From Gracilariopsis chorda (lineage: Eukaryota > Rhodophyta > Florideophyceae > Gracilariales > Gracilariaceae): DNA of 64,000 nt. The translations under genes were made by a program, and so were the position numbers. The stretch lies in contig NBIV01000114.1 in assembly GCA_003194525.1 (NCBI GenBank), forward strand, positions 167,915 to 231,914, given 5' to 3'. The notes under the pieces were generated by a model that worked only from the letters and a program-made list of their open reading frames with translations, made no database searches and was not told where the DNA came from. This document shows, one piece after another, positions 38,640 through 64,000 of the stretch (positions are counted from its first letter, which is position 1; each line of letters starts with the position of its first letter).

Positions 38640-38910
38640 TAGTTGTGGCACTTGGTTGATTTCCCGAATGTTTTGATAACGTATTCATTGCATGAACTAT
38701 GTCCACTAATAGTGGGTTTGACAGGTGGGACACGGAAGACTCAATTGGTGGTTGGCATAGTTGGGCATAGTGGTGGACATGAACAACTAATGTGGAGTAA
38801 TTCTCGTCAAAGTGTTTTATTATGTTATACCCATTTCTGGGATGGTTAGTAGTTACTGCGCAACCGAGTTGCCGTTGCACCAGTAAATCTTGCGCAAGAA
38901 GGGACTTCAA
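38620..38910 (-). pseudogene. outward frame of the left arm, interrupted by the pogo insertion
   Basis: The reading contains SNPLLVDIVHAMNTLSKHSGNQPS and then runs into the transposon end. The right arm encodes the same stretch (40033-40410: SNPLLVVGVHAMTTLLKHSGNQPS). Skipping the transposon, the left-arm frame resumes at 36634 (FLRAFHF) where the right arm has SLRALHF and reaches a stop at 36523-36525. Function unknown. No ATG start was found, so it is probably a 3' exon or a fragment. Confidence 0.5.
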
Positions 38911-38919
38911 TCTGTAGAA

Positions 38920-39307
38920 ATGGCTCTAGACCTCGCCGCCTTCGCGTGCTCTCCACTCTTCTTTGAAGAAAAGTACCGTAGCCGACTTAAAGTCTATCCC
39001 TTTGCCCGTCTAAGGGACCCCCGTATCAAGACTGTTATTTCAACGGCTTTGGTGTTCGACTTTGTATAAGGGTCACTTACTGGCACCGTTGTTCACCTCC
39101 GTTACTACTCTCGTGACTTAGTTCCCTCTTTTCTTCTTCCTTTTACAGGGTGGCTCTTCCACTGCCTGCGGCCCGTCTTTTCACGTGCCACCTACGTGGA
39201 TCCTTACCTCTCTCGAGGACACTCACCCACACACATTGCTTCCACGGATACCCGATTTCTGCCTAAACCTCCCTGCACAAGTCGCCACGGCAGGGCTTTG
39301 GCCTTAA
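38920..39307 (+). CDS. small spliced gene of the left arm, unknown family
   Basis: Exon 1 is 38920-39063 (MALDLAAFACSPLFFEEK, 48 codons). The intron is 39064-39148 (GTATAAG ... TTTTACAG). Exon 2 is 39149-39307, ending PAQVAT and a few residues before TAA. The total is 100 residues. Support comes from the mirror copy: its donor (GTATAAC at 39759) and acceptor (TTTACAG at 39678) fall at the same places, and exon 2 of both copies reads similarly in this phase (IPDFCLNLPAQVAT against IPNSCLSFPAQVAT). No known domain is visible. It may be one exon pair of a longer transposon gene. Confidence 0.5.
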
Positions 39308-39489
39308 AAACCGACATGGATGTTGCACCTCTAGGAGGGCACTATGCAGTGCAATGGATCCTCGAACACGAGGGAAGGACTCGACTCATATTGAGTTTCT
39401 ACCTGTAGTACAATGCCCGGAAGCAGGAGTGCACCGAAAGACGTTCAGGATTTTTCCCGGTTAGAGATGAACCCAGTTGGGTAGAACTC

Positions 39490-39860
39490 TCCCAGTAGTG
39501 GCAGGCCTACGTCGGTTTGTAAGGCCGAGGCGACCCGTCGCGACTTGCGCAGGGAAGCTAAGGCAAGAATTGGGTATCTGCAGGAGCGGTATAGGGGGGA
39601 GGTCGTCCTCTAGGCAGGTGAGGTTTCCACGTTAGTGGCATGCGCGAACACGAGCCGTGGGTAGCGGGAAAGCCACCCTGTAAAGGGAAAATAAGGGGGA
39701 GCTCAGTCACGAGTGTCGTGATAAAGACTAACGGCAATGCCGTTAAATAAACGTTATACAAGGCGAACACCAATACAGTTGGAGTAACAATCCGAATACT
39801 CGGGTCCTTTAGATAGGCAAAGTGGTTACACTTCCCATATGCGACGGTGCTGCCCTCCAA
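39490..39860 (-). pseudogene. mirror copy of the spliced gene in the right arm
   Basis: The minus-strand exon 1 region is frameshifted (LALDLTTFACSLLLFGG, then FAYLKDPSIRIVTPTVLVF in another frame). The intron is 39759-39678. Exon 2 starts at 39677 (GGFPATHGSCSRMPLTWK) and remains open. It differs from the left copy mainly by substitutions that keep short motifs, plus a frameshift in exon 1. Confidence 0.45.
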
Positions 39861-40032
39861 AGAGGAGTAGTGAACAAGCGAAGGTGGTGAGGTCTAGAGC
39901 CAATTCTCCAGGTTAGGCTCCCTTTTTGGGGAAGGTGTGCTGGTGCGACGGCAATTTGCCGGCGCACTAAGTACTAAACATCCCAGAAATGGGTGTAAAA
40001 ATAATAAATACAATTAACTAAAATACTCCACT

Positions 40033-40410
40033 TTGGTTGTTCATGCCCGCTACTGTGGGCAACCGCCAATTTACTTTTCCGTGTTCCACATGTCCAATCC
40101 ACTATTAGTGGTCGGGGTTCATGCAATGACTACATTACTGAAACATTCGGGAAATCAACCAAGTACTAAGAATCCCTCCCTAAGGGCATTGCACTTCATT
40201 ACCGAACGATCAGGTGTGACTCAGATGCATGTGTCAGAGGCCCTGAATGCCACGAGAGGGATAGCCCTGCTACCATTAGTTACTGGAATGGGAAGTCATA
40301 TGTGCATGATCCTTGGCCCCGCTGAGAGTGTGGACGTAGTGGAAAACGTGTCCGGTGGGCGAACGCTTATGCAGATGATCTCCTGGGCCAGAATGTCACA
40401 CACTCTGTAG
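40033..40410 (+). other. outward frame of the right arm
   Basis: A 125-codon frame lacking an ATG start. Its first half mirrors the left arm. The second half (LRALHFITERSGVTQMHVSEAL, NVSGGRTLMQMI) is present only here because the left arm is cut short. Unknown function. From 40411 to 41172 I see no further supported gene, although protein-like stretches (ARSYAQLFPNVSERS near 40895) suggest more element-derived sequence. Confidence 0.35.
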
Positions 40411-48935: not shown

Positions 48936-49523
48936 ATGGACTCGTTGGGAGGCATCAAAATCAAGAAGTTGGGAGAGGATAACTTCCACGTATGGAAGCA
49001 AAACGCTCGGTCGCTTGTGGAGCTCAAAGACCTCGATGATCAGCTCGAAACAACCAAACCCATGGACGATGACGAGCTGTCAGAGTGGAAAAGGAAATAT
49101 GCCAAGGCACGAGCTGTGATTGGTCTCACCATCATTGATGTGCATTTGGATGATGTTAGAGACACTGAAAATGCTGCAGAAATGTGGAAAGCCATATGAG
49201 ATGTGTTTCAGTTCAAGACGCTGCTCAACTGAATCAATGCGCAACGTTCCTTCTATACAGCCAAGATGCGGAATGACAAGAAAATGTTACAGTTAATCAA
49301 TAGCGTACGTCATTTTGCATCGGATCATAAGAGTATGGGCGTCACCATTGAGGATTAATACATCGCAATGGCTATTTTATGTGGACTACCGGAACGCTTT
49401 GAGCACCTCATAGTTGGCATCGACACTACAATTGATGAACGCAAACTTGAACTGGATTTTGTGAAGAGTCGTTTGCTGCAAGACGAGCAGCGAATGCGTC
49501 GGTGTTCTCGGAATGCTAGATAA
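48936..49523 (+). mobile_element. copia-type gag fragment (segment 3)
   Basis: The frame from ATG 48936 (MDSLGGIKIKKLGEDNFHVW) is a UBN2-type copia gag N-terminus, with AAEMWKAI before the first stop at 49197-49199. The same frame goes on past stops to 49523 (GLPERFEHLIVGIDTTIDE, KSRLLQDEQRMR). It ends at about the point in gag where segment 2 begins, so the two segments complement each other. The rest of this copy is missing. Confidence 0.75.
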
Positions 49524-49938
49524 GGGTGCTAGATCGCAAGTTTGTTAGGCAATCACTCAAAAAAACTACGAAAACGCTAGATTCTGCTAGTTCGTGGTGG
49601 TTGGCAAGCAAAAAAAAAAATTTTTCGGAAATCACTCTTTCATATTTTCTATTGTCATCCGTCCCTAGTACCGCACTTCGCTAGTTTCAAGTTTAGAGCA
49701 AGTTCTTTGCTCACTAAACGCTAGTTAGAGGGCTCGAAATGGCGCTGGCCGCGTAGCAGCCAGCGGCCCCACCCCCATGCAACGCAAATTAACTTACATA
49801 TTTCCATCTCGTGGATTTCAAACTTCAAATTGTCAAAGTTTGGAGCCCAACTGTTCTCTCAGCCTCACTGGGTGGCACCCACACTCTTGAACACCAAACA
49901 TAAAACCTCCCTTACCATCCTTACCATCCTTCTTCTCC
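49524..49938. other. junction between copia fragment and the 50-64 kb unit
   Basis: Contains an A/T run at 49610-49625. The gag similarity stops near 49,520. No clean terminal repeat of the downstream unit was seen. Confidence 0.4.
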
Positions 49939-50697
49939 TTATCCTCTCATTCCACGCCTCCTCTTCAACCGACTCTCACCTTCTATTCCTTCGTCGTCCT
50001 TCTCCTCCAACCTCTTCCTTACAGCCCCTCGACCGGGAGTAACAGGAGTGCCTTCCCCGACAACAGCTCTCCCTTCCGCATCACACACCTTCTTCTGCAT
50101 TTCCTCGATTAGATGCACAGCCCTACCAACCAGTAAAAGTTGCTTCTCCAACACCAAAACCCGTCTACGCATCTCCTCGTTCTCCTTCCACAGTCTCCTC
50201 AGCTCCTCACCCACACACGCCACAACCCCATCGACATGCATTTCCGCCCACACCCCAGCCTCCCTTGCCCTCCTACGCAGCTCAGCCACAGCACCCATAG
50301 GCACCCCTTCCTCTGAAGAACTCAGCACCATCCCCCCCATCTCCACCACAACCTCCTCGATACACTCATCCAAACGCTCCTTAAGCCCTCCGCCCACGCT
50401 CCTCACCAGTTTCTTCACATCGCGGTAAAACCGACTCATTCGCCCCGCCCCACCTCCTCCTCCTCCCCGTCCTCCTCGACTTCCCTCGCCCTCACTTCCC
50501 TCCCCCCCATCCCCTCCCATCATCGTCCCAACCCCAAGCTCCCCGAACCCAACACCGTTCCTTCCCTTGCCCTCTTCACCATCACCCTTCCCTTCCTCCT
50601 CCTTCTTCGTCCTTGGAGGCGTCTCGGGGACCTCCCTCTTCTCCGCTTTATCCAACAACGCCAGTAGCTCCTCATCATTCACGTCTTCGCTAGACAT
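49939..50697 (-). CDS. coiled-coil protein with glycine/glutamate-rich region, unknown
   Basis: The product is 252 residues from the ATG at 50697 (MSSEDVNDEELLALLDKAEK). Residues 35-85 are G/E/K-rich and probably disordered. Residues 86-215 are helical with heptads (ELRRLWKENEEMRRRVLVLE). The tail is basic (ESRLKRRRGMRG), like a nuclear signal. No family is recognised. It lies downstream of, and on the same strand as, the membrane protein gene, and its strand-skewed purine-rich composition matches that of the 61-64 kb genes. Confidence 0.55.
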   Translation of the reverse strand: MSSEDVNDEELLALLDKAEKREVPETPPRTKKEEEGKGDGEEGKGRNGVGFGELGVGTMMGGDGGEGSEGEGSRGGRGGGGGGAGRMSRFYRDVKKLVRSVGGGLKERLDECIEEVVVEMGGMVLSSSEEGVPMGAVAELRRRAREAGVWAEMHVDGVVACVGEELRRLWKENEEMRRRVLVLEKQLLLVGRAVHLIEEMQKKVCDAEGRAVVGEGTPVTPGRGAVRKRLEEKDDEGIEGESRLKRRRGMRG

Positions 50698-50939
50698 GGC
50701 TACTACACGCCCCACCACAACGGCGCTCCCGTTCCTAACCCAACCACCAAGCGAGCACTCCCCAGGTACTTATCCAACCGCATTTTTTCACTCGCCCGTT
50801 TTCGCGCCATTTCCCACCGAGTCGTGTCCCACCAATAATCTGAAACGAAAAATTTAGAACGACATTAGTTTAACACTTCCTTCAGTTTACAACTCTATCA
50901 CACTAACTTAGGTATGTACAGGTAGAACTACGAACGTGT

Positions 50940-52136
50940 CTAAAGAAATGGTTCAAAACGAGAACCAACAGGCCTACATTGCTCTCCTAGATTCGCAACA
51001 TACCTTCGAAAATGGTACTCCAAGTCCATATCCACAGCCATACCCAAAAGAAGCAGCACGAAAAAGATAGTATTCTCCACTACAGGCGCGAGTCCCCTTA
51101 CCTTGTGCAAAGAAGTATCGCTCAGGAACGTGAAAATCAAGTAGGTAAACACAACAGGGAACACCCTTCCGATATAGAGCCTCATAGTAGCCACACCATC
51201 TCTAAACCCAAGCACCTTATTCAAACCACCGTATACGGTCCTGCACACATCCAAAATCAGCCCAACACTACCTCTCTGCACATATGGGAGCTCTCTCTCA
51301 TTGTTAAGGCTGTCCCTAGTCACAAAAAACATCGTTAGCCGTTCAACCACATACGACATACCCCCAAACATGAAACCACCAGTGAAAAATGCAAGAGCAC
51401 CAGTCCTAAGTTCCATTCCAATCGAAATTGGCGCTTCCAAGAAGTGATAGCCAACAAAAATACAAACATTCAACGGCAAAAGACCTGCCATCGTGAATCC
51501 AAGTAGTCTGTTTCGAATCACAGAAATCCGTGCCATTCGCTGGCTTTCCCGCAAAGGTACGTATGCCAATGAACCAAAATGCCTTCTATGCAATGCAAAC
51601 ACCATATCGAAGATAAACAAATGCAAAACAGTCTCCAGAACTACCACAATCAACATCTTCGGAGACATTCGAACATCCCCTACCACATAATGCATCAAAA
51701 GCGGTTTCAATACCCCATAAAGAGCACCAATGGCTAATGAAAACAGAAACGCATATGCGCACCAAGCCCTGAAACTGAACATATGACGAGGGCTTCTAGA
51801 AAGGTTTGGCGCATTCTCCAGATATTGTATCAAATGAGTACTCCCGTACAGCACGTGCAAAAAATTTGAATTCGTTAAGATATAATTATGTGTCGGTACT
51901 TCGTCTAGAACCTCGTATATCTCCGTCACATCCTCCAAAACACCCGCGGTGAGCAACCTTGACGCCCCTCGCACAACACCCTTCTCCGTATCCGTACTAT
52001 ACCGAATTTCAAGTACTTCGTCAAACCGAATCACCGTCTCATTCGGAAAGATATTCAGATACGCACGAGTCCTCCGGTCACTCTCGGAAGACTGCAAATA
52101 GTAGTCGTGGTGCTTGTGGATGTTCTCGAATGCCAT
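50940..52136 (-). CDS. six-helix membrane protein, unknown
   Basis: The product is 398 residues from the ATG at 52136. A soluble N-terminal part (1-130) is followed by about six membrane segments: AYAFLFSLAIGALYGVL, MLIVVVLETVLHLFIF, TMAGLLPLNVCIFVGY, GALAFFTGGFMFGG, FPVVFTYLIFTFL and TIFFVLLLLGMAV. There are charged loops between helices and no signal peptide. I recognise no transporter or receptor signature. The frame is intact, unlike the enzyme genes next to it, so it may still be under selection. It lies between the coiled-coil gene and a small divergent gene. Confidence 0.72.
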   Translation of the reverse strand: MAFENIHKHHDYYLQSSESDRRTRAYLNIFPNETVIRFDEVLEIRYSTDTEKGVVRGASRLLTAGVLEDVTEIYEVLDEVPTHNYILTNSNFLHVLYGSTHLIQYLENAPNLSRSPRHMFSFRAWCAYAFLFSLAIGALYGVLKPLLMHYVVGDVRMSPKMLIVVVLETVLHLFIFDMVFALHRRHFGSLAYVPLRESQRMARISVIRNRLLGFTMAGLLPLNVCIFVGYHFLEAPISIGMELRTGALAFFTGGFMFGGMSYVVERLTMFFVTRDSLNNERELPYVQRGSVGLILDVCRTVYGGLNKVLGFRDGVATMRLYIGRVFPVVFTYLIFTFLSDTSLHKVRGLAPVVENTIFFVLLLLGMAVDMDLEYHFRRYVANLGEQCRPVGSRFEPFL

Positions 52137-52697
52137 GTTTGAATGTCGATCACGATTGTACCTCCTCCCCACTTGAACCAACCTCTTCCTCGCTTATATG
52201 CACAACGTACCATCCTCCGACTTGCTAAACCCTCCCAATTCCAAACACGCGAAGCAGTGTTTTGAACCAGTACACGATAATGCATTCAGTGTCTACACTC
52301 CTTTTCATAAATCAAGCACTGCTTGCACCCCACACCGCATTCTGATATGAAAGGAACCACTACCTTCACTATGGACACATTTGGGAACCGCAGTCTTTCC
52401 CTGTAGCAATGTCGTGCTTCACATCCCTACAATCTCCTTTAATTCTCATAAATAATTACATATTCACTTTCATTTACATTCATATCTCATATGATTTGTC
52501 CACTATACCTTTCTTTATTCTCCCCACCGATATACCCGCCCACCAAGTTTCTTCTTATACCTGTACCTCTCTTAATAAAATATAACAGAGCTTCATCTTT
52601 CCAGACATCATCCCTTCACTATTAAACATCATCCAACACAAATGGCGTCATCTTTTCCACTCCCATCACCCTGTCCCTCTATTTACATCTATTCAAC

Positions 52698-53018
52698 ATG
52701 TCAGAAAGTCGCTTCCCTCCTCATCCTTATGTCGCAACAACACATCGGGAGGAGGTACCCGTCGTGATGAGAGAACTTTTGCGCCTTGTAGCTCTTCATA
52801 CACGAATTCATCATAATACTCTCACCAATGAGCACTCCATGGAAGCACTACTCAAGTACGGAAAATCCCTCACATCCCTCAAGGCCTCCTTCTCTGAGTT
52901 TCACGTTCGAAACGGTTTCTTCTACGAAATCTCAAGAAAATTGAAGGAAGCTGGAGCTAAGGACCCAGCCCCCCTCCATACAAGGCTCGTAGACGTTATC
53001 CAGTTCCATATTGTATGA
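52698..53018 (+). CDS. small unrecognised protein
   Basis: A 106-residue frame from the ATG at 52698. It is mostly helical (EEVPVVMRELLRLVALHTR, HSMEALLKYGKSLTSLK) and not low complexity. It is convergent with the oxygenase gene, whose stop lies 134 bases away. An out-of-frame ATG at 52642 comes first, so the start is not certain. Confidence 0.5.
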   Translation: MSESRFPPHPYVATTHREEVPVVMRELLRLVALHTRIHHNTLTNEHSMEALLKYGKSLTSLKASFSEFHVRNGFFYEISRKLKEAGAKDPAPLHTRLVDVIQFHIV

Positions 53019-53151
53019 TAGTACTCAATAGAAGACCCATCATGAGTATGATACTTGCTCACATCCATTTCAAAAGAAACGAATAAACACATTGCACTAA
53101 TTTAAGTCAAGTTTTACAAACGTTTATCACCATATATACTACTTATCATCA

Positions 53152-56100
53152 TTAATCACTTTCATCGTCCTCTCCTATCAGACCCTGCAATCCTTTAGGG
53201 ACCATCTCTCCCTCCTCATCATCCTGTTCATAATCCCCATCAGTATTCATCTCCACGGGCTTCCATACGTAATCCTCCTCCTCATCGTCTGACTGATTGT
53301 TCCCCTCCACATCGTCCATATCAACGTCTCCATCATCAGAACTACCACCTCCCGCCTCCATCTCTTCATCTTCCTCTTCCTCCTCAAATCGAGGTGTAAA
53401 TCCGACCTGTCTATGTACAGCATCCGGGAGATTGTATCCGTCAGGCACAAGATACATATGGTAGCGGAAGCAATACCCTTTCACAATCGCATCATCATAC
53501 CCAGCTCCAGCGTGGAATACATCCCCTCTTCCAATAAACACAGAAAACGGCGGAATCCTCACCTTTCGCACCACCATAGAACCAGAAAGCCGTTTCACGT
53601 TCTCCCGAGTCATAGTCAGGTTATGAGACCTCTCGCATACCCAAATCATGAACGCATCTGGCCCAGATGCCATTACGAAATAGCCCGGGTTTGCTTCCTT
53701 CTTCCTATCCGCCTCCGACAGATTCCTAAAATCAGTGTGCAACACTTGCCTAGGGCAATCCTCTCCAGTACACAATACACGACCACCAGTTTCAGGCGCA
53801 TACATCGCTCCACCTTCTGAGTTTCGCTCAGTCAACCAAAGTGCTGCCGCAATCTGACCAATTCTTGCATCCAACAACGCCCTCTTCCGCACAAGCACTG
53901 CAGCGTTTTTGAGCGCCTCAATTCTATCCACAATCCCCCTCTTCGTTGTTATAAAACGTCCCACTGCCTTTAGGAGGTTCAAAGCATCCCTCTCTCCCCC
54001 GCATTAATGATGAGATTCCAAAACATCCTATTCCTCTCATCCGCAAGGTCCGGTTGCGATTCAAAATCACTTCTAAAGAACTCCATCAGTTCCCCTACCA
54101 CATCCTCATCCACTTTCACACCCTTCTTCATCGCCGCAGTAGCCATACCTTCATCCGTCCCAAACTCCTCCAACACACAGAAACCTCTCTCTGAAAGTTC
54201 CATTCTCTTCTTTGCAAAGTACACGCGAGCCAAATCCTCCCTCCAAACGCAGCCATCCATAATGCTTCGTCCTCATCTGTAGGGTTTCCGGATTTCGGCA
54301 TCTTCACTCCCAGCACCGGATGCCTCGTCGTTCCCATTTCCCTGTGCATGTTACGGGATGCCCTCCAATACACAGCATGGTGCACCATCCGGAAGTCCTC
54401 CACTGACAAGCACTCAGCTCGATGATTCTTCCTCAAGTGAATCCTCTGCATCCATGGATGCGGATGCTTCACTCCGTTCTCGTTCCCAAGCCACTCACTC
54501 GGCAACGAGTACACGAGGTCTAACCAAGACATGTCCGACCCCGTAGCCACGTCAGCTGGGCGACTTAACCCCTCCGGAAGCTTTTCCGGATTGCTATCCT
54601 CAAACCTTCCTGCGGTCTGCTGCCCCTCCTCATTCTCTTCATCAAACTCGAAGTCGTCCTTTGCTTCATCTTCACTAGACGACAGGGCAATGATATCTTC
54701 ATCATTCAACCACCTCTTCAGTTCCCATCTCCCCATACTGCGCAATACCTCCACTACCTCTCGCGCAATACTCGGTCTGTTCACGCCTCCTGTCTTCGTG
54801 GGGTTTCGATTCGGCCCTTTCCGCTGCGGCCGTTTCGGCTTCTTCAGTGATGGTTCAAAGGCTTTGGCACTATCACTGTCAAGGACCTCCGCTTTCCTTT
54901 TCTTGGAGTTCCCCACCCGACCATCGGCGATTCTCTTACTTCGTCTAGGCTCCAAGGTAGCCGACTTCAAGGTAGTCGACTCGTATAAACCGAGCAACTT
55001 CGGTTCAACAGATTGATCGAGGACCGGCTCTGAATCCTGTGGCCCGTCCTCCTTCAGAGCTCTATACAACGTCCTATGTATCTCTCTCACCTTATTCTCC
55101 ACCCTCGACTCCAAAGAACTGTGTTTCCCCTTCGTATACCACTTTCCAAGACGCGATACGATATATTTGGATACCGTCTGGTCCGAATCTCCAATCTTCA
55201 TTGGTATACTCATCACTTCTTCTACGCCTTTCTTCTTCTTCATAGTTCTACCAAGTTCAATGCATAGGTCATACACTTTAGAAGCGCAGTGAAAGAAGTA
55301 CTTTCGGAAATCCTCAAACGGCCCCATCCTCACCGTAGCGGCGGACCTCACTCGCACGTGTGCCTGTAGACATTGGATAGTAAAAACGAAACCTATCCGC
55401 AGACATCCGGAGCAGCATGTCACTAGACACATGGGTAACCCCAATTTGAGGTGTTTCCTGCCATACGCCATCGAAGAACTCGAGCAACCCCGGGTTCCGT
55501 GCAAACTTCAGAGCAAGAGCGGAATGTCGATTGAAATGGCGTATCCTTCCTTCATTTCCTTCAGTGTCACTGCTCCACAGCACCCCCGTTATTTGGCTTG
55601 GCGTCAGCTTCTGTATGTCATAACCGTCCTGCTCTACGCCATTGCGAATAAACGAAACCGTAGTGTGAATCCTATCAGCAAAAGACATCACCAGAACATT
55701 AGAACTCAAATCATTCAACGTCTTTCCGAGCCATAACACCTCATTGAAAGTCATTCTTTGCGTGTCCTTGCGCTTCCAGAGTGTCACGTTCAACCCGGAA
55801 ACAATACGAGCCCATTTCCCACCTTCCTTCTCCAACTCCAGCAAAACAGTGATGCGATGGTAGCCGTCTACAAGAACGACAGGCACAACCAGCCGCCCGT
55901 TCGCATCGATAGCCTCACTCAGCGGTACGTCCTCCGCTAGGGCAACTGCAATAGACCCAAGCGAAGGAAGCCATCCGAATTTTCGCAGTTTGTTCGACGT
56001 CTCTCGAAGGTGCTTCTCATTCTTTGACCGTACCATGTTCTTCGGAAATCGAATCATGTGTACGTCAATGACACAATCATGTTGCTCATAGTCGTCATGA

Positions 56101-57041
56101 TTGATGTTCAAAACACCTAAGGTTCTGTCCACCGCTTCTGAACCAACTACATCCCCCTCATCATACAAAACCCTCTCCTCTGGGGTGAGGTCCTTGTTGG
56201 ACTGTCGCGGCACCTCTATGACGTCATCATCAGAGTCTTCCACGCTTACCACCTCTTTCGCTTCCTCTTGTGCCTCAGGAATAATGAGGGGAGCAGACAC
56301 CTCTTCAAGTTCAGTTTCCTGCGGTTTTCTAACTCCTCTGCTAGCAGGTCGCGGTGTCACATCTCCCTTTCCACGGCCACGGCCTCTCGTTCCTGAGCTT
56401 CCTCTTGGAAAGGGTTCTATATCGGCAGGACCTGAGGCCGCTTCACCACTCTCAATCCTTTTAACTGGTGCTCTACTCGTCAAAATGCTTGACGGCGTAC
56501 CAGAGGCAGTTGAAACGAGCCTCCTACGTGTACCAGGTACCCTCGGAGTCGCCAGCGGCTTCTTCTGTTTGGTCGCGGGGGGGTTCTTTTGCTTCGAAAG
56601 GGTCTTCGGAGTGGCCAGGGGCTTCTTTGGCTTCATAGGAGTCGTTGCAGTACTAGCACTAGTGCTTGGCTGCGCAGCCTTCACATTTATTGCTGACTGC
56701 GGTGGAACCGACTCACCCCCCTCTCCCACTTCCTCCCTACTGCTCATCATTGCAGTGTCCCACGCATACAGCCCTGCAGACACCATCTCCTTCAGAGTAG
56801 CGGGCGGTTCCTCAGGACCTCCAAATACGTACGGATACCTTTCATCTCCATGTGACGATATATTAGCCTTCCATATCACTACCAAATCCTGTCCCTCTTT
56901 CTGGTAAGACGACAACGGATGGCGATGCAGAGATCGGCAGAGTCCTGTTCCAGGCCCAGATCCACCCGCTACGTCCATACCCCGCAATTGTGCTTTGCCA
57001 ACCTTCACCTTTTCATCGCTATTACCGATTCGCACAAACAA
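53152..57041 (-). pseudogene. ParB-like (DGxHR) and 2-oxoglutarate/Fe(II) oxygenase-like gene, frameshifted
   Basis: Four minus-strand frames follow one another with small overlaps: 57041-55314, about 55320-54240, about 54250-53985 and 53982-53152. Only the first has usable ATG codons (the first in frame at 56978), which suggests one gene of about 1,290 codons with three frameshifts, not four genes. The first part has a P/K/T-rich region and then a ParB/sulfiredoxin-like domain: RFPKNMVRS, KFGWLPSLG and the signature VLVDGYHR at about 55850-55872. The middle is basic and acidic linker (PRRSKRIADG). The last part resembles a double-stranded beta-helix oxygenase: H82 and D84 in LHTDF, H157 in VFHAGAGYDD and R173 in FRYHMYL (residues of the last frame). 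An acidic tail ends it. ParB-like domains cut or bind DNA using nucleotides. Such oxygenases hydroxylate bases or proteins. Real substrates are unknown. Confidence 0.65.
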
Positions 57042-57465
57042 ATTGACAGACGCCCCACCATGGAGCTCTCTGTTTGCATCGCGTTGAGCGGGCGGAGGCG
57101 TGGAAAGGTTGGAAGCTCTGAGCTGCCCATGCTTTTCGCTTTTCCTCGCGTAGTCGGCATTTCTATGTCAGGCCTTCGCAGCGAAGCGGATTTCCTGGGA
57201 CAATGCTTCTTCGTCTTCGTAGAACTCTTATTCCGGCCGAGAACCACGCTGCAATCTTGAAGCGTTCGCGTGATCAAGTTGTCGTGGCACCCAGTCGCGT
57301 AAGATGCTCTCGTGATCACGTCTGCTCGGTTCAGGCGACGTGAGCATCTATACTTTTGAAATACATGGTATTGAAGACGTTTCCTGACAACCATTAAGTT
57401 CATTTAGGCGGCGCTGCAATGCACCTGTAATGATTTTGCATTGGTATTCGAAGTTTGTTTTTGGG
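57042..57465. other. upstream part of the divergent intergenic region
   Basis: The oxygenase frame stays open to 57167 without an ATG, then a stop occurs. This leaves room for a lost or spliced 5' exon. No promoter motif is recognised. Confidence 0.4.
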
Positions 57466-57782
57466 GGTGGAGGTCCGTGGACCGGAGTGTCGTGGCGCTT
57501 CATCAGGCGCCTGATGAAGCGCCACGACACTCCGGTCCACGGACCTCCACCACGTGGCGGCCAGCAGTTCCGAAAATCAAAAAATTAGTTTAAAATTAGT
57601 GTCTGGAATGAACGGACATCTGCGGTACGACCTAGTAGGTCATGGGCGGAAGATGCATGGTTCATTTTACACTAATTTTTTGATTTTCTGAACAGCTGGG
57701 TGGCGAAGGTCCGTGGACCGGAGTGTCGTGGCGCTTCATCAGGCGCCTGATGAAGCGCCACGACACTCCGGTCCACGGACCT
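57466..57782. repeat. nested palindromic element: two perfect long palindromes around an inner inverted repeat
   Basis: Palindrome 1 is 57466-57551, 86 bases, perfect, with no spacer (centre CATCAGGC|GCCTGATG). Palindrome 2 is 57707-57782, 76 bases, perfect, with the same sequence. The 155 bases between them form an imperfect inverted repeat (GAAAATCAAAAAATTAG near 57571-57587 against CTAATTTTTTGATTTTC near 57672-57688) around a small palindrome GACCTAGTAGGTC. The outermost bases extend the symmetry (GGGGGTGGAGG ... CACCCCC). The element lies exactly between the divergent enzyme genes. Confidence 0.97.
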
Positions 57783-58105
57783 CCACCCCCCCTAGCAGTT
57801 CAACATCAGCATAGTTTCTCGCAATGATCTTCTGACCGCCGCGCTCCTTCATGCAATCGGTGTGATGCGCAGATATTCTCTCTTATCATCGCAGTGCAAC
57901 CACGCCGGCTCACAAGCATTACAACGATTCCGAAAACCCGCCAATCTTCATCCGCGTGATTGCAACTTTTGGTCATTGACGACCACCGAAAAACACGGTA
58001 ACCACTTTCTCTTTGCTCCGCGACCGCTCCGAACGTGTGGAGTATCGCGTTCCTCCCCCACGTCCGTTCATTTTCAAACTAGCTGCATAGCCATCGAGGT
58101 ATATC

Positions 58106-61100
58106 ATGGGCTCCTCCGTCGAAGAAGTTAATGTGAGGTCGGCCGCCACCGGGAGTGCTTCGGGAAGCGGTAAGATGCATGGAACTGGGGAGCAGCTTCT
58201 TGCTGCTTACCTGGGTATTCGCGACGCCTACGTGGCGACGAGGCAAAACTTTGACGAGCCGAGAGGTCTGAAGCACAGCGATTTCTTGACGTTCGCGGTG
58301 GAAACCCGAAACGTTCATGAGTCTGTGAAGCAAATGTTCTATACTCTCATCGGACCGGATTACACCTCGTACTCCGATTCCGAGCTACGGAAAGTCGCTT
58401 CTAGGGTCCGGCACGTCAGATGTACTTGATGGCAAGGGTAGTGGACCTGAAGGATGGTGATGGGGACCGACGTGTGAGGGACTTTTGGGAGCTTATTGTG
58501 GAAGCGAGGTGCATAAGGTATACCACGCAATGTATTGCTAAGTGTTTCTTCAAGTCTCGAGTGCTAGGCGTCATCAATAACTCTTCTCCTTTCCACACCA
58601 AACCTTGCACGGATTTCGAATTCTTCATAGCCTTGTCTATGGTGCAGAACATCTCGTTGCATAAGAAAGCGAGTGGTAGAAAAAGGAAATTCGGAATGTC
58701 TAGTACGAAGTTCTCGAAGGTGAGCCTGTCTGACAAGCTGCAATGTCAGAGAGTGGGCTATGGCGTCCAGCTGGTTACCAGGGCATGGATTGCTTTGCAC
58801 AATTCTTGGTTTTCCCAACGTCGAGGTTATGATATTGCCGTACATTCGACTGGACTACCGTAACATGGTATTCAAAGATATTGGAGAACCTTCCCTGGGT
58901 TTTCAACACAAAGACTGCTCGAAACAATTTGTGAAGGAGAAGAACGCCACTACCATCAGGGAGAACGTTGTGGAATGGGCTTGGAGCCTACCTGGCGCAG
59001 TTGATACAGGACTTCGTTTATGTGCAAAGGAATACCTTGGGACCTTTCCAGTGTGGTAGTACAAGAGAAACTGTTCGAAATCTCTGCTCCCAGTAAATGG
59101 GATGCTCTAAAGAGATTCAATATCACGAACACAAGGCATTTCCCTACACGATTTGAGGACTTTAGTGAGTCTCTTGTCACTACAGTTCAGGATGCCATCA
59201 AGCCTCTTAAGCTAACTAAATCGCATGGAAGCAATTTCGCCGTTCATCAAGCTGTTAAGCAGGAGCCTGGGAAGATGACGATATCATGATGGTGCCGGTA
59301 CGGACCAACCCTGCTGCTGGGAGGCACGAAGGTATTCATGAAAAGGAAGGTATCGCTGATAATGAGGTCGAAGAGGTGGTGGAGAGTGTGGCTGCTCCAA
59401 GAGCTACTACTGGTCTGCAGACAACGACATTGTCTCAGAGACTGACGTACAGCGTGAAGGAGACTGGTGTTCAACCTCCACCGTATCCGAAGACTTTAGA
59501 TCAGTTGATGTCGTACGAGTACTGTGAGAGGCAGATGTCCCGCAGCTTCCGTCTTCACAACTGCAGTTTCCAAGACCTTGTCGAAGTCGACGACAACAAG
59601 TCCGGGGACAGCGAACTATCCATTGAAGGAAGGTACAGTTCGTGCTTTCGGATCCCCCATATGGGACTCGTGCGGAGCGTAATCGGGAGAACAGTGGTCA
59701 TGATGTTCTCACCGAGAAGACCATGCCCGGGCAGGGAAAAGAATTTCAAAGTTGCTACGTCCCGGTGGGCATGTTATATTGTTCTGCTCGTGGGATCAGA
59801 TACAGAAGTGGCGGGAGGTGCTGCGGAGTGTTACGTACACAGATGACTCTGGCACAACTCGTTTTTCTTTTGTCGTGGACGAACAACCCCTCCAGTTCGT
59901 ACGATCCATGGGAACTCGATGGTAATCCGGGAAGGCGGAGCTGTCGGCTGTACCAGACGTCGGAGTATGCCGTACAAGCAGTGCGCTCTGGGGTCCCGTA
60001 TTCCCAACAGCACAGAATGGTGAACTATGAGAACTTTGATTTTATCCCTTCACGCTACCCGGCATATCACGCAATCATAGACCAGGTGCCGCCTATGTCT
60101 TATGGGGAAACTCTGCTATGGAATGTGACAAACTCGGAGAGAATCACTACGAGGAAAAAGGTGCGACCGGAACAGAAGTGTAGGGCATTGCTGAAGGAAC
60201 TCATTGCAGGTTTAGTCAGCCAGGAACCTAGTGGTTGACCTCTTTGCGGGGACGTTCTCTACAGCGATGGCATGCATGGAACTGCCGAAGCACCGGATAT
60301 TTGTAGGATGTGAAGACGATAAAGCTGCTTTGAACACGCAAAGCATGCTGCTATTGTTCGTTTTGCTTCTATAATCCGGGAAGAAACACCAATCTTGAGA
60401 AGAACCAAGAGCTCAGGAAGATGGCCCATACTGTTGTCATCGCATTTCCAATGGGCAGATTGAGGCATACCTTGTCATGGAAGGCAGTCAATGGCTTTTC
60501 TCCGTACCAGATGCTTCCCCCACACGTCGTCCAGTTCCTGTCGAAGCTGTGGAGAAGTGAAGAGGTAGCCAAATTGGGTAAGAGCAGGACCTCGATCAAT
60601 GGCCTAGCGTGCTGCAGGGTAGGATGAATCTGGAGAACATGAACTCGCTGCTGGCAATGGAAGCTGTGCATTATGGACTACGAATCAGCAAGTCTACTAT
60701 TCGCCACGATAACGCTGGTGTTGGAGTGTTTGCAACTCGTCGAATTGCTGTAGGGGAGGTAGTGTGCTACTTCTATGGGACACTCGTGTATCATGATCTG
60801 ACGAACCGTAAAGAAGTGCACAAGACCTACGGGACGGAGTTATGGGTGTGACGAAGGATCGCTTTCGAAAATATGCGGTGGAGGTGGATTTCATGGGCAT
60901 CAGTTCTCTGCACTACCTCATCGGAGAAACACTGAACCATGGAAAACAAACCAACCCGATTCTTTGGGTTGTTCCAGCTCCGTTTTGTGTTGCAGGGTAT
61001 ATTAACGACCCTAAGTATGTCGAAGGCGATAAGGACTTAGATGCTACGGTAGATGGCCTTGTGAAAAAGCGTGAGGCTAACGTGCGGATGAAAACGTTCA

Positions 61101-61271
61101 CCTGGCCTAGGGCTGAACCGTAGGAAACTAACAGACTACAGGCTTATCAAGCTGGAAGCCCTTGTTGAAATAGAGGAAGGGGACGAAATCTTTAGTGAAT
61201 ACGGAAATGTCTATGATTGGCATACTCAGACGCATCTGCGTATAGATGATGGAGCTATTGTAATTGACTAG
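58106..61271 (+). pseudogene. DNA amino-methyltransferase and SET-domain fusion gene, frameshifted
   Basis: From the ATG at 58106 the coding sense passes through about 14 frame segments to a TAG at 61269-61271, roughly 1,050 codons. The first 500 codons are an unknown region. The methyltransferase part starts at VQFVLSDPPYGTRAERNR (motif IV, DPPYG at 59651-59665), then KLLRPGGHVILFCSWDQI (about 59750), YQTSEYAVQAV (about 59950), KCRALLKELI and the cofactor-binding motif VVDLFAGTFSTAMACMEL (60231-60284). This order, DPPY before the FxG motif, is the beta class of N6-adenine/N4-cytosine methyltransferases. A SET domain follows: NAGVGVFATRRIAVGEVV (60708-60761), a GYINDPKY block (about 61000) and EALVEIEEGDEIFSEYGN (about 61158-61211). 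Motifs are spaced normally across the shifts, so these are single-base indels rather than introns. The first 300 codons could belong to a separate gene. Confidence 0.75.
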
Positions 61272-61530
61272 CTTATATACTAAAGAAACCGAGTTTGTAA
61301 ACCACATAGCTACTTTAGTGAAAAAGTCCTTGATGGGGGGATATGTCAGGGGACCCATTCGGTTAACGAGTGGTAGGAACATCAGGGTAATTTTTTTCAT
61401 GTTTTCAGAGAGGTGGAACTAATGCCAAAAAACCCTTCGTGGCTTTTCGTGAGTTCTTCCTGCTCGGCACACGTCGTTTTTAGGGCCGCGGTGTTTCCCC
61501 GCCACAAGCACGCGACATTATCTAACAGCT

Positions 61531-62508
61531 ATGCCCGTGAAGGGGAAGAAGAGAGGCGCCGGGAGGGAAGGCGCGACGAATGCACCGAAAACGCGACGGA
61601 GGGGTGTGGAGGAACGAAGTCCGAGTGGCACGAAAGGACCTCAGGTAGGAGCTACCCGCGTTCCGAGGAGCGGTTTGTCCGGGAGAAAAAGGGAGGACAG
61701 GGGGTTCAAACCCAAGTGGCGCATCGGATCGCACGATAAACGAATAATTTGAGGCCGGAGCTCTCCGAGAGGCGCGGTCTGGCAAGGAACCAAGGCGCGT
61801 GCAACGGATGAAGCGGAGATCCAACGAGGAAGCTGCGAAACACGACAGGAGCGGAGTGGAGGGAGATGGTGTTTCCGAGCAGGCACGCGCTGAACGCTCA
61901 GGAGTGAGGAAGGTCTTGTCGTGTGGAAAGGAGGTGCAGGAGTGTCGTAACTCCAAGCGACGTGGAGCTCCCAGTGGTAATCAAGAGCGCGCGCAAGAAG
62001 AGGTGAATGTTTATTTGCCTGAGAGCGAAGGAGAGCGCGAAGATGAGATTACGAAGGGGAGGTGTACCGAAGGAAGTGCACGTGAGAAGCACGGGCGGTG
62101 TTCTAATGTATTTCATGAGAATGAGGCCACGAGAGATCAAGATGGAAATGGTGGCACTCCCATCCGATCGAGGAATATATGGACATCGTCCCTGACGTAG
62201 AGAAAGAAAGCGGACGCAATGCGCTGCGTACACCGGAAGGAATGCGGGAGAGAAGGCGAAGAATTTCGGTATCATTTGACCGATCTTTCGAAATGGGATT
62301 GGAGGCGGAAGAGAATGTGAATAAGTCACCCCGTGATGAGCAAGTGGTGAGTACCGATGTTGTGAAGGACCTTGATGATGATGAGATCGGTGTGTTGTCT
62401 AGACCTACATTGGTTCAGAAGGTGAATTCGCTAAAGGGAGAACTTGGAAGCCTTAAGGAGGACCATACTACTTTAAAGATATCTTTGAAGCTGACACAGG
62501 AGAACTGA
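61531..62508 (+). pseudogene. basic, purine-rich coding remnant upstream of the 62.5 kb gene
   Basis: ATG 61531 opens 73 codons of a K/R/G-rich protein (MPVKGKKRGAGREGATNA). Frames at about 61799-62200 and 62179-62508 continue in the same strand and composition (EEIGVL-like acidic and LKGELGSLKEDHTTL coiled coil). The last frame stops at 62506-62508, just before the ATG at 62514, and coiled-coil reading resumes there, so one frameshift probably separates it from the next gene. The whole may be one gene with a disordered N-terminus. Confidence 0.4.
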
Positions 62509-62513
62509 AGAGG

Positions 62514-63860
62514 ATGAGGGAAGAAATGATCGAGAAGAACATGCTGATTGACAGTTTGAGGGAAGGGATAAAGGTAAGGAGTGCGGAGAGAAGAAGAGCT
62601 GAAGGGGGAGACACTGATTTGACGAGGCGTAAAAAGTATGTGGTTGATGTGGACGAGAGCTTTTATGGATTTGCTAGGGTAGTGTATGATAGGATATTGT
62701 ATTACGCAAAGTTGGAAGTGTCGGAGCTTTGTTTTACTACGGATCGAATGGAGAGGAACTGGACGAACCGGTGTGAGATCTTAGGGAAAGGGACGGAGTC
62801 GAGTGTATTCGTAGTGGGAGGGAACGAAATTTTTCCTCGGTGTCCCTTTGAGATCGTATCGGAGATGAGGGCGTATACACCGAGTTTGCGAGGAGGAAGC
62901 AATGAACTTTTGAAGTATTTGATTGGTGTTGAGATTGAAGGGCATAGATGGGAGTCGATTCGACAAGCGGGTAAGAAGATTCAGTGTATGCAGGACGTAG
63001 CTCGGGACAGGTGTTTGAGGCAGCGTATGAAGCAAACGTTGAGCGATGTGATTGGGGTTCGGAAGCGGGCGGCACGGGAAAAGTTGTTTTCGCTACTTGG
63101 GTATGACTTGATAGCAAGACGTGTGAGACCTCAGGAGGGGACGGAGCTTGATGTGGAATTGAAGAAGCAGTTAGAGGAAGCGAGAAGCAAGTTAATGGGA
63201 AAGGAGGTAGAGAAGAGCCGAATCTTATGTGCATGGAGAATGAGTGCGATTGACGATCTTACATATTCTGGATTTCAAGTTGCTCGAAGGTTAAGGGACT
63301 TTGGTGGGGAGGACATGTACTTTAAGAACGGAGCTGCGGTAGAAGTGCTGGCAGAGTTTATGGGATATGAGGTGGTACCGGGAGGCGAAGGGAAGACAGA
63401 TTATGTGGATGGAACTGTGATGCATTTGGCACGCTTGGATGCTTGGATCGGATGTGTTTTGACTGCGTTGGACACGAATGTGGGCCGTGGAGGAAAACGG
63501 CAGTTATTGTTTTCAAAGTTGTTTGGTGAGTATCTCCCGCTTGCTCTGGAGAACATAATTGGGGTGGCATGGGAGAGAGTGAGGGAACGGCACCATGAGG
63601 AATTGGAGAATGAAGGGTTCGACGAGGGGGATCCGCGTCGCATAGCAGGGAATGAGAATAGGAAAGCGACGGTTGCGCTTTGGATACCTTCGAAGCGGGA
63701 GATCTACTTGGCAATGAGGGATGAGTACTTCTTGGAGCACCTGACGAAACGACTTGGAGGGGTGCTTGACTGTTATGTTGCTGCTTGTCGGCCGGAGGAT
63801 GTGTGGATGAAGAGGTTGCAGAATGAGAACGGAGGGAATGGGAGGAATGGTTCAAGGTAA
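62514..63860 (+). CDS. unrecognised 448-residue protein
   Basis: From the ATG at 62514 an intact frame of 448 residues. The first 30 residues are coiled coil that seems to continue the preceding frame. The rest looks globular and helical with recurring charged segments (YGFARVVYDRILYYAKLEV, EVLAEFMGYEVVPGGEG, RLDAWIGCVLTALDTNVG, SKREIYLAMRDEYFLEHL). No catalytic or metal motif is recognised. G/A-rich codon use resembles that of the minus-strand gene 49939-50697 read on its own strand. No family can be given. The intact frame next to broken ones suggests recent function or a later insertion. Confidence 0.6.
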   Translation: MREEMIEKNMLIDSLREGIKVRSAERRRAEGGDTDLTRRKKYVVDVDESFYGFARVVYDRILYYAKLEVSELCFTTDRMERNWTNRCEILGKGTESSVFVVGGNEIFPRCPFEIVSEMRAYTPSLRGGSNELLKYLIGVEIEGHRWESIRQAGKKIQCMQDVARDRCLRQRMKQTLSDVIGVRKRAAREKLFSLLGYDLIARRVRPQEGTELDVELKKQLEEARSKLMGKEVEKSRILCAWRMSAIDDLTYSGFQVARRLRDFGGEDMYFKNGAAVEVLAEFMGYEVVPGGEGKTDYVDGTVMHLARLDAWIGCVLTALDTNVGRGGKRQLLFSKLFGEYLPLALENIIGVAWERVRERHHEELENEGFDEGDPRRIAGNENRKATVALWIPSKREIYLAMRDEYFLEHLTKRLGGVLDCYVAACRPEDVWMKRLQNENGGNGRNGSR

Positions 63861-64000
63861 GAGCTCTACGGTGAAATGGAGGGTGTTGAGGGAGGCGAGT
63901 AGTTGTTTCAAGTGGAACGGATAGTTTATGGAGGGGTAGTGGAATGGGGTTGTAGGGCTTTGAAGCGGTGTCGCGATAGAAGCGGTTAATGTAGAAACGA
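63861..64000. other. short downstream sequence to the window edge
   Basis: Nothing recognisable. Confidence 0.3.

Follow-up and report, generated by a model that had tools for sequence, protein, structure and literature searches.

The window analysed here is a 64,000-nucleotide stretch of the Gracilariopsis chorda genome (contig C114), whose right part is occupied by a transposon carrying a gene for a DNA methyltransferase domain joined to a SET domain. The features located in this part are as follows.

49497–64000, no strand assigned: Plavaka-type transposon, collinear with the C745 copy; its right side is cut by the contig end
49497–49519, plus strand: left terminal inverted repeat CGTCGGTGTTCTCGGAATGCTAG, from repeat pattern counts and the boundary common to copies
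49942–50769, minus strand: ORF of 276 aa without a Pfam match
50943–52193, minus strand: ORF of 417 aa, an apparent membrane protein by eye, with no match in Pfam, PHROGs, or NCBIfam
53155–54003, minus strand: C-terminal part of an apparent long protein of the element; by eye only, it resembles a dioxygenase (HT[DE] ... HAGAG ... FRYH)
54131–57167, minus strand: probable rest of the long protein, from alignment, in overlapping ORFs (54131–55507 and 55317–57167); ParB-like motif by eye only
57466–57551, no strand: perfect palindrome of 86 bp in the intergenic region of the divergent genes, also present in C745
57697–57787, no strand: second, imperfect copy of the palindrome
58106–61271, plus strand: methyltransferase–SET fusion gene, located by tblastn with the intact 1065-aa L009 protein and by the Pfam domains on L009; frameshifted in this copy
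59630–60409, plus strand: N6_N4_Mtase region of the fusion, DPPYG to VVDLFAG (tblastn segment aa 517–778)
60567–61268, plus strand: SET region of the fusion (tblastn segment aa 832–1065)
61391–63857, plus strand: next element gene (821 aa in L009), located by tblastn of P0002; frameshifted here, with no match in Pfam, PHROGs, or NCBIfam

The fusion frame opens with an ATG at 58106 and closes with a stop codon ending at 61271, and in the window copy the gene is broken into several frames. The original prediction of continuous coding sense without a gap is thus not literally true of this copy, while the DPPYG and VVDLFAG motifs and both SET stretches that it named were all present within 58106–61271 at agreeing coordinates. 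When the window ORFs were searched alone against Pfam (seven gene pieces and two neighbours), N6_N4_Mtase was not found, and only sub-threshold matches to SET (16.3 bits) and UPF0020 (11.5 bits) were obtained. Intact relatives had been expected and were found in the same genome, where the 1065 codons are open in L009, L010, and L011; DNA identity among near-identical copies is approximately 99%. The L009 protein (1065 aa) matched N6_N4_Mtase (PF01555) with 66.8 bits at aa 518–756, covering positions 1–220 of the 221-position profile, which agrees with the predicted beta-class order of motif IV before motif I. It also matched the entire SET profile (1–105 of 105) at aa 882–1044 with 23.3 bits, barely above the curated cut-off of 22.4, which was exceeded as well by L012 (26.8 bits) and L016 (29.0 bits); in all three, both Pfam domains lie above cut-off in one ORF. 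The SET domain starts approximately 125 residues after the methyltransferase domain in the same polypeptide, and an N-terminal portion of approximately 500 residues lies ahead of the latter. At the DNA level, an N6A/N4C beta-class DNA methyltransferase domain and a SET domain are hence one polypeptide, so that the fusion foreseen for a eukaryotic genome is borne out by the match of both profiles in L009.

The linkage was then evaluated over the assembly (91.3 Mb, 1081 contigs), which gave at least 150 N6_N4_Mtase matches (150 of 175 candidates were scored) and 85 SET matches. For 59 of the 150 scored methyltransferase matches, a SET match lies 373–430 bp downstream on the same strand (median 379). 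Chance pairing of motifs was ruled out by the Pfam matches together with this near-fixed spacing. In 19 of the 59 linked pairs, situated on 18 contigs and belonging to three groups, the two matches have open frames of equal length without stops in either; in the other 40, no such shared stop-free frame was reported for the two domains. The remaining 91 methyltransferase matches have no SET at that spacing, deleted or broken copies being among them (e.g., C12 and C32). Conversely, 26 of the 85 SET matches are unlinked, including the eight best-scoring ones, which are presumably host genes. An alignment of 12 proteins was divided by eye into four groups, L009/L017/L026, L012/L013/L016/L027, L014/L015, and L022/L023/L024, of which L017 and L026 are 70% identical to L009, and the other three groups 33–44%. 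Each of the first three groups has at least one copy with both domains in one open frame, which shows that intact homologues do not always keep the two domains in separate genes. In the L022/L023/L024 group, the spacing to SET is unchanged, but the SET match contains a stop in all three fetched copies.

Selection was estimated between L009 and L017/L026 (dS 0.96–1.3), for which dN/dS was 0.14–0.16 in the N-terminal part, 0.15–0.16 in the methyltransferase domain, 0.19–0.28 in the SET domain, and 0.21–0.26 in the two linkers; the ORFs that represent L017 and L026 have frame breaks that interrupt SET. Few changes separate near-identical copies, and their pairwise values scatter between 0 and 3.7 or are undefined, as copies after insertion should show; dS was saturated in most regions of the between-group comparisons. 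The values well below 1 in both domains indicate that both remained coding during the divergence of the L009, L017, and L026 lineages. The methyltransferase and SET domains are both under purifying selection.

The window copy had been described as dead or badly decayed. Its frameshifts are present as described, but its death is doubtful, since 26 of the 32 indels that separate it from C48 over 57–64 kb (6509 aligned bases, 23 mismatches) fall in homopolymers. When C48 and C53 were each compared with C745, one indel was found in the 1.5-kb bin at the gene start, and the three bins that follow had no indels; the C48 fusion contains one in-frame stop, giving frames of 452 and 612 aa. Between the window and C745, 19 indels were counted at 54.0–55.5 kb, of which 16 lie in homopolymers and for which the faulty copy may be either. 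The window frameshifts therefore look largely like residual error of a long-read assembly, which is the simplest cause, with true decay as the alternative. An isolated dead gene in the window was ruled out by the intact copies and by the whole transposon around them.

The unit carrying the fusion was delimited by comparing copies. Window positions 49611–63612 are collinear with C745 at 99.1% identity, and contig C114 ends at window position 64000, before the right end of the element. Both element ends carry a 23-bp inverted repeat, CGTCGGTGTTYTCGGAATGCTAG, with the termini CGTCGG..CCGACG; with up to two mismatches, this pattern has 115 + 124 occurrences genome-wide, whereas the reversed control has 1 + 0. 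The left boundary common to the copies is window position 49497, and the right boundary was located at C745:16843, C187:90097, and C790:9457. A 2-bp target duplication, within the 2–3 bp typical of Plavaka elements, was present in all 10 fetched pairs of facing ends, which were chosen from the terminal repeat sites listed. The right-end ORF of C48, on the minus strand, matched the Plavaka transposase profile PF18759 with 73.4 bits (cut-off 26.3), and by eye it contains CPRC, HLLDH, and then E, to be compared with C(2)C and H(3–4)H between the second D and the last E. Among 114 Plavaka transposase matches in the genome, one was located within 12 kb downstream of 72 of the 150 scored methyltransferase matches, on the opposite strand in 71 of these 72, and within 12 kb upstream of only 1 of the 150. 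The terminal repeats, the target duplications, and the linked opposite-strand transposase thus assign the fusion to a Plavaka-type DNA transposon, and the unit is a multicopy one with terminal inverted repeats, in line with the earlier remark that such enzymes in eukaryotes usually come from mobile elements or viruses. The same three features ruled out insertion of a giant virus or phage as a unit. No relative was found among 109 pattern-matched stretches of prokaryote genomes, and viral contigs gave a weak relative of the methyltransferase part only, in 4 of 47 such stretches. The C745 copy is approximately 17.0 kb and C48 has 1313 bp absent from it; hence, the element of the L009 group is approximately 17–18 kb.

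Many copies are internally deleted, and deletion derivatives with the common junctions 51769/57125, 57703/59358, and 61113/63067 have spread (L018–L021, L029, and L031–L036). Several of them retain a shortened fusion frame of 593–650 aa, which in L032 and L034 crosses the last junction with loss of the SET end. Most of the first palindrome is missing in C27 and L018. Outside the element, the window contains an inverted repeat of approximately 670 bp with 74% identity (38650–40164). As for the host, seven phycobilisome linker matches were obtained in the genome, which is consistent with a red alga, probably a florideophyte. One linker tested against PDB gave CpcN of 8imn in the top row (564.7 bits, the sum of five stretches of a repeat protein); among single-stretch alignments, LR3 of 5y6p was the best (467.5 bits), and 6kgx gave 290.9 bits. 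The 5y6p structure is from Griffithsia and 6kgx from Porphyridium. A nuclear ORF (L062:1495–2484, minus strand) carries a partial phycobilisome domain (28.1 bits, profile 66–155 of 155).

The apparent long protein encoded divergently from the fusion is another conserved component of the element. Its C-terminal part has 142 genome matches (pieces of one copy counted apart), some of them within frames that stay open for 1417 and 1350 aa, and two divergent ones are 45 and 52% identical to that of the window; from the frame length, we infer that one frame covers the whole protein in C550. The protein has no match in Pfam, PHROGs, or NCBIfam. The dioxygenase-like part, considered as a candidate TET/JBP or other 2OG dioxygenase, matched nothing in Pfam (three members) or PDB, and a fold search with its single-sequence model gave 0 of 606 matches at E ≤ 0.001, this model (pLDDT 44.7), like that of the ParB-like part (pLDDT 35.5), being too poor. 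For the ParB-like part, none of five members matched Pfam, and PDB returned only LvrB (E 0.016), RNF4 (E 0.35), and NdmD (E 0.77), which were taken as chance. Elsewhere, in two copies of the L012 group, ORFs downstream of the fusion showed OrsD above the cut-off of 26.6 bits at L016:6470–8902 (31.1 bits), and OrsD below it (23.6 bits) together with a DEAD helicase (30.0 bits) at L013:3757–6941. A speculative and rather unlikely reading is that the fusion and the long protein form a complete chromatin-editing kit, in which the fusion would methylate DNA (6mA/4mC) and histones, and the ParB-like/dioxygenase-like protein could target or erase a mark. If so, the transposon would counter silencing by the host with an epigenetic system of its own that has two layers.

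The catalytic outlook of the two domains was assessed from their motifs. A sequence search of PDB with the methyltransferase part gave eight matches; those named were the adenine enzymes DpnA, CcrM, MboIIA, and RsrI, and two were labelled only "Methyltransferase". The best PHROG for the fusion was a phage DNA methyltransferase family (81.4 bits). Judged against the catalytic (D/N/S)PP(Y/F/W) of beta-class N6A/N4C enzymes, DPPY is kept in 3 of the 11 aligned proteins covering it (L009, L026, and L014) as well as in the window copy, and is altered in eight (L012, L013, L015, L016, L017, L022, L023, and L024); the L027 alignment does not reach this site. Two of the four groups (L012/L013/L016 and L022/L023/L024) have D-A-P-[YTA] or D-V-P-Y throughout, and single members are altered in the other two. 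Since the site is altered in most aligned proteins, some or many of them may lack activity on DNA. Motif I is conserved despite these changes, as is much of the remaining methyltransferase domain. SET domains are recognized by the SAM-binding and catalytic motifs GxGVFA, NHS, and a terminal Y. In the six aligned SET domains, the first and last of these are invariant, and INDP is invariant at the usual place of NHS, as judged by eye. The SET profile matched KMT2C, EZH2, SETD8, and the viral vSET weakly (32 matches, E 0.0012–0.53), and the two alignments shown cover both halves of the domain.

On balance, the fusion is somewhat more likely than not a dual writer of DNA and protein marks that serves the Plavaka-type transposon in anti-silencing or self-regulation. 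The element would produce the fusion, whose methyltransferase domain would methylate DNA at adenine or at N4 of cytosine, its targets most likely being element copies and the DNA around them. A lysine of histones close by, or of the transposase, would be methylated by the SET domain tethered to it, and the two marks combined would keep the host from silencing the element or set the time at which it is expressed and transposes. A role of this kind has been put forward for other transposons with TET/JBP or SET genes; the precedents given in PMC12730594 are DNA transposons that carry SET (HarbingerS and MuDR) or TET/JBP, Plavaka being among the latter. If true, one enzyme would naturally couple a DNA mark with a histone mark.

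The anatomy would fit self-silencing just as well as anti-silencing. The fusion might put repressive marks on the element's own copies and limit their number so that the host survives, a restraint that could pay for an element that is abundant and whose deletion derivatives with common junctions have spread; this is judged unlikely, as selfish elements should generally be under selection for escape. Less likely still is a scaffold role, in which the methyltransferase fold would bind DNA and so recruit the SET enzyme to it, catalysis on DNA being lost or secondary. The altered DPPY in 8 of 11 proteins, which includes all of L012/L013/L016 and L022/L023/L024 while motif I stays conserved, is in keeping with such a scaffold, but L009, L026, and L014 keep DPPY, and the methyltransferase part is constrained at least as much as SET. 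That the fusion is passenger cargo captured from a virus or host, with no function for the transposon, could be read from the phage family as best PHROG and from the four weak viral relatives of the methyltransferase part; a dN/dS far below 1 throughout the protein and an order and spacing that are the same in four groups make it improbable, the selection result in particular. Finally, neighbouring genes or a chimeric assembly misread as one protein, as the broken window copy at a contig end might suggest, is hardly credible given the 19 single-frame, stop-free pairs on 18 contigs in three groups.

A DNA methyltransferase–SET fusion, in a transposon or elsewhere, was not found in the largely open-access literature consulted. 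To our knowledge, no transposon protein that joins a DNA amino-methyltransferase to SET has been described. The methyltransferase domain of the present fusion resembles the beta-class adenine enzymes DpnA and CcrM (PDB 5hek and 6pbd) in placing motif IV before motif I and in covering the whole Pfam profile; it differs from them in the approximately 500 N-terminal residues and the C-terminal SET that are added, and in its location in a eukaryotic transposon. The N4CMT of bdelloid rotifers reportedly belongs to the host's own genes rather than to a multicopy transposon, carries a chromodomain, and is said to have no SET. It is likewise a bacterial-type amino-methyltransferase in a eukaryote (PMC8885841). 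The giant Plavaka repeats of Amoebidium are Plavaka-flanked gene clusters with hits to red algae, for which the relevant section of PMC11244446 names tyrosine recombinases and not a methyltransferase–SET protein. In Phytophthora, HarbingerS and MuDR are likewise DNA transposons with a SET methyltransferase gene, but they belong to other superfamilies, and a DNA methyltransferase in the same protein is not mentioned in the part of PMC12730594 that cites them. The fungal TET+ Plavaka and other TET/JBP transposons are alike in the Plavaka-type transposase, the 2-bp target duplication, and the epigenetic enzyme as cargo. Their cargo oxidises 5mC, whereas here it is a DNA amino-methyltransferase fused to SET, and the termini CGTCGG..CCGACG match neither published lineage, PlavakaA (TGT..ACA) nor PlavakaB (CATCA..TGATG) (PMC12730594). 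Transposons with TET/JBP or SET genes are thus known already, and an amino-methyltransferase–SET fusion in a transposon is apparently new; it offers a direct test case for the relevance of 6mA/4mC in a red alga and for transposons that write their own chromatin.
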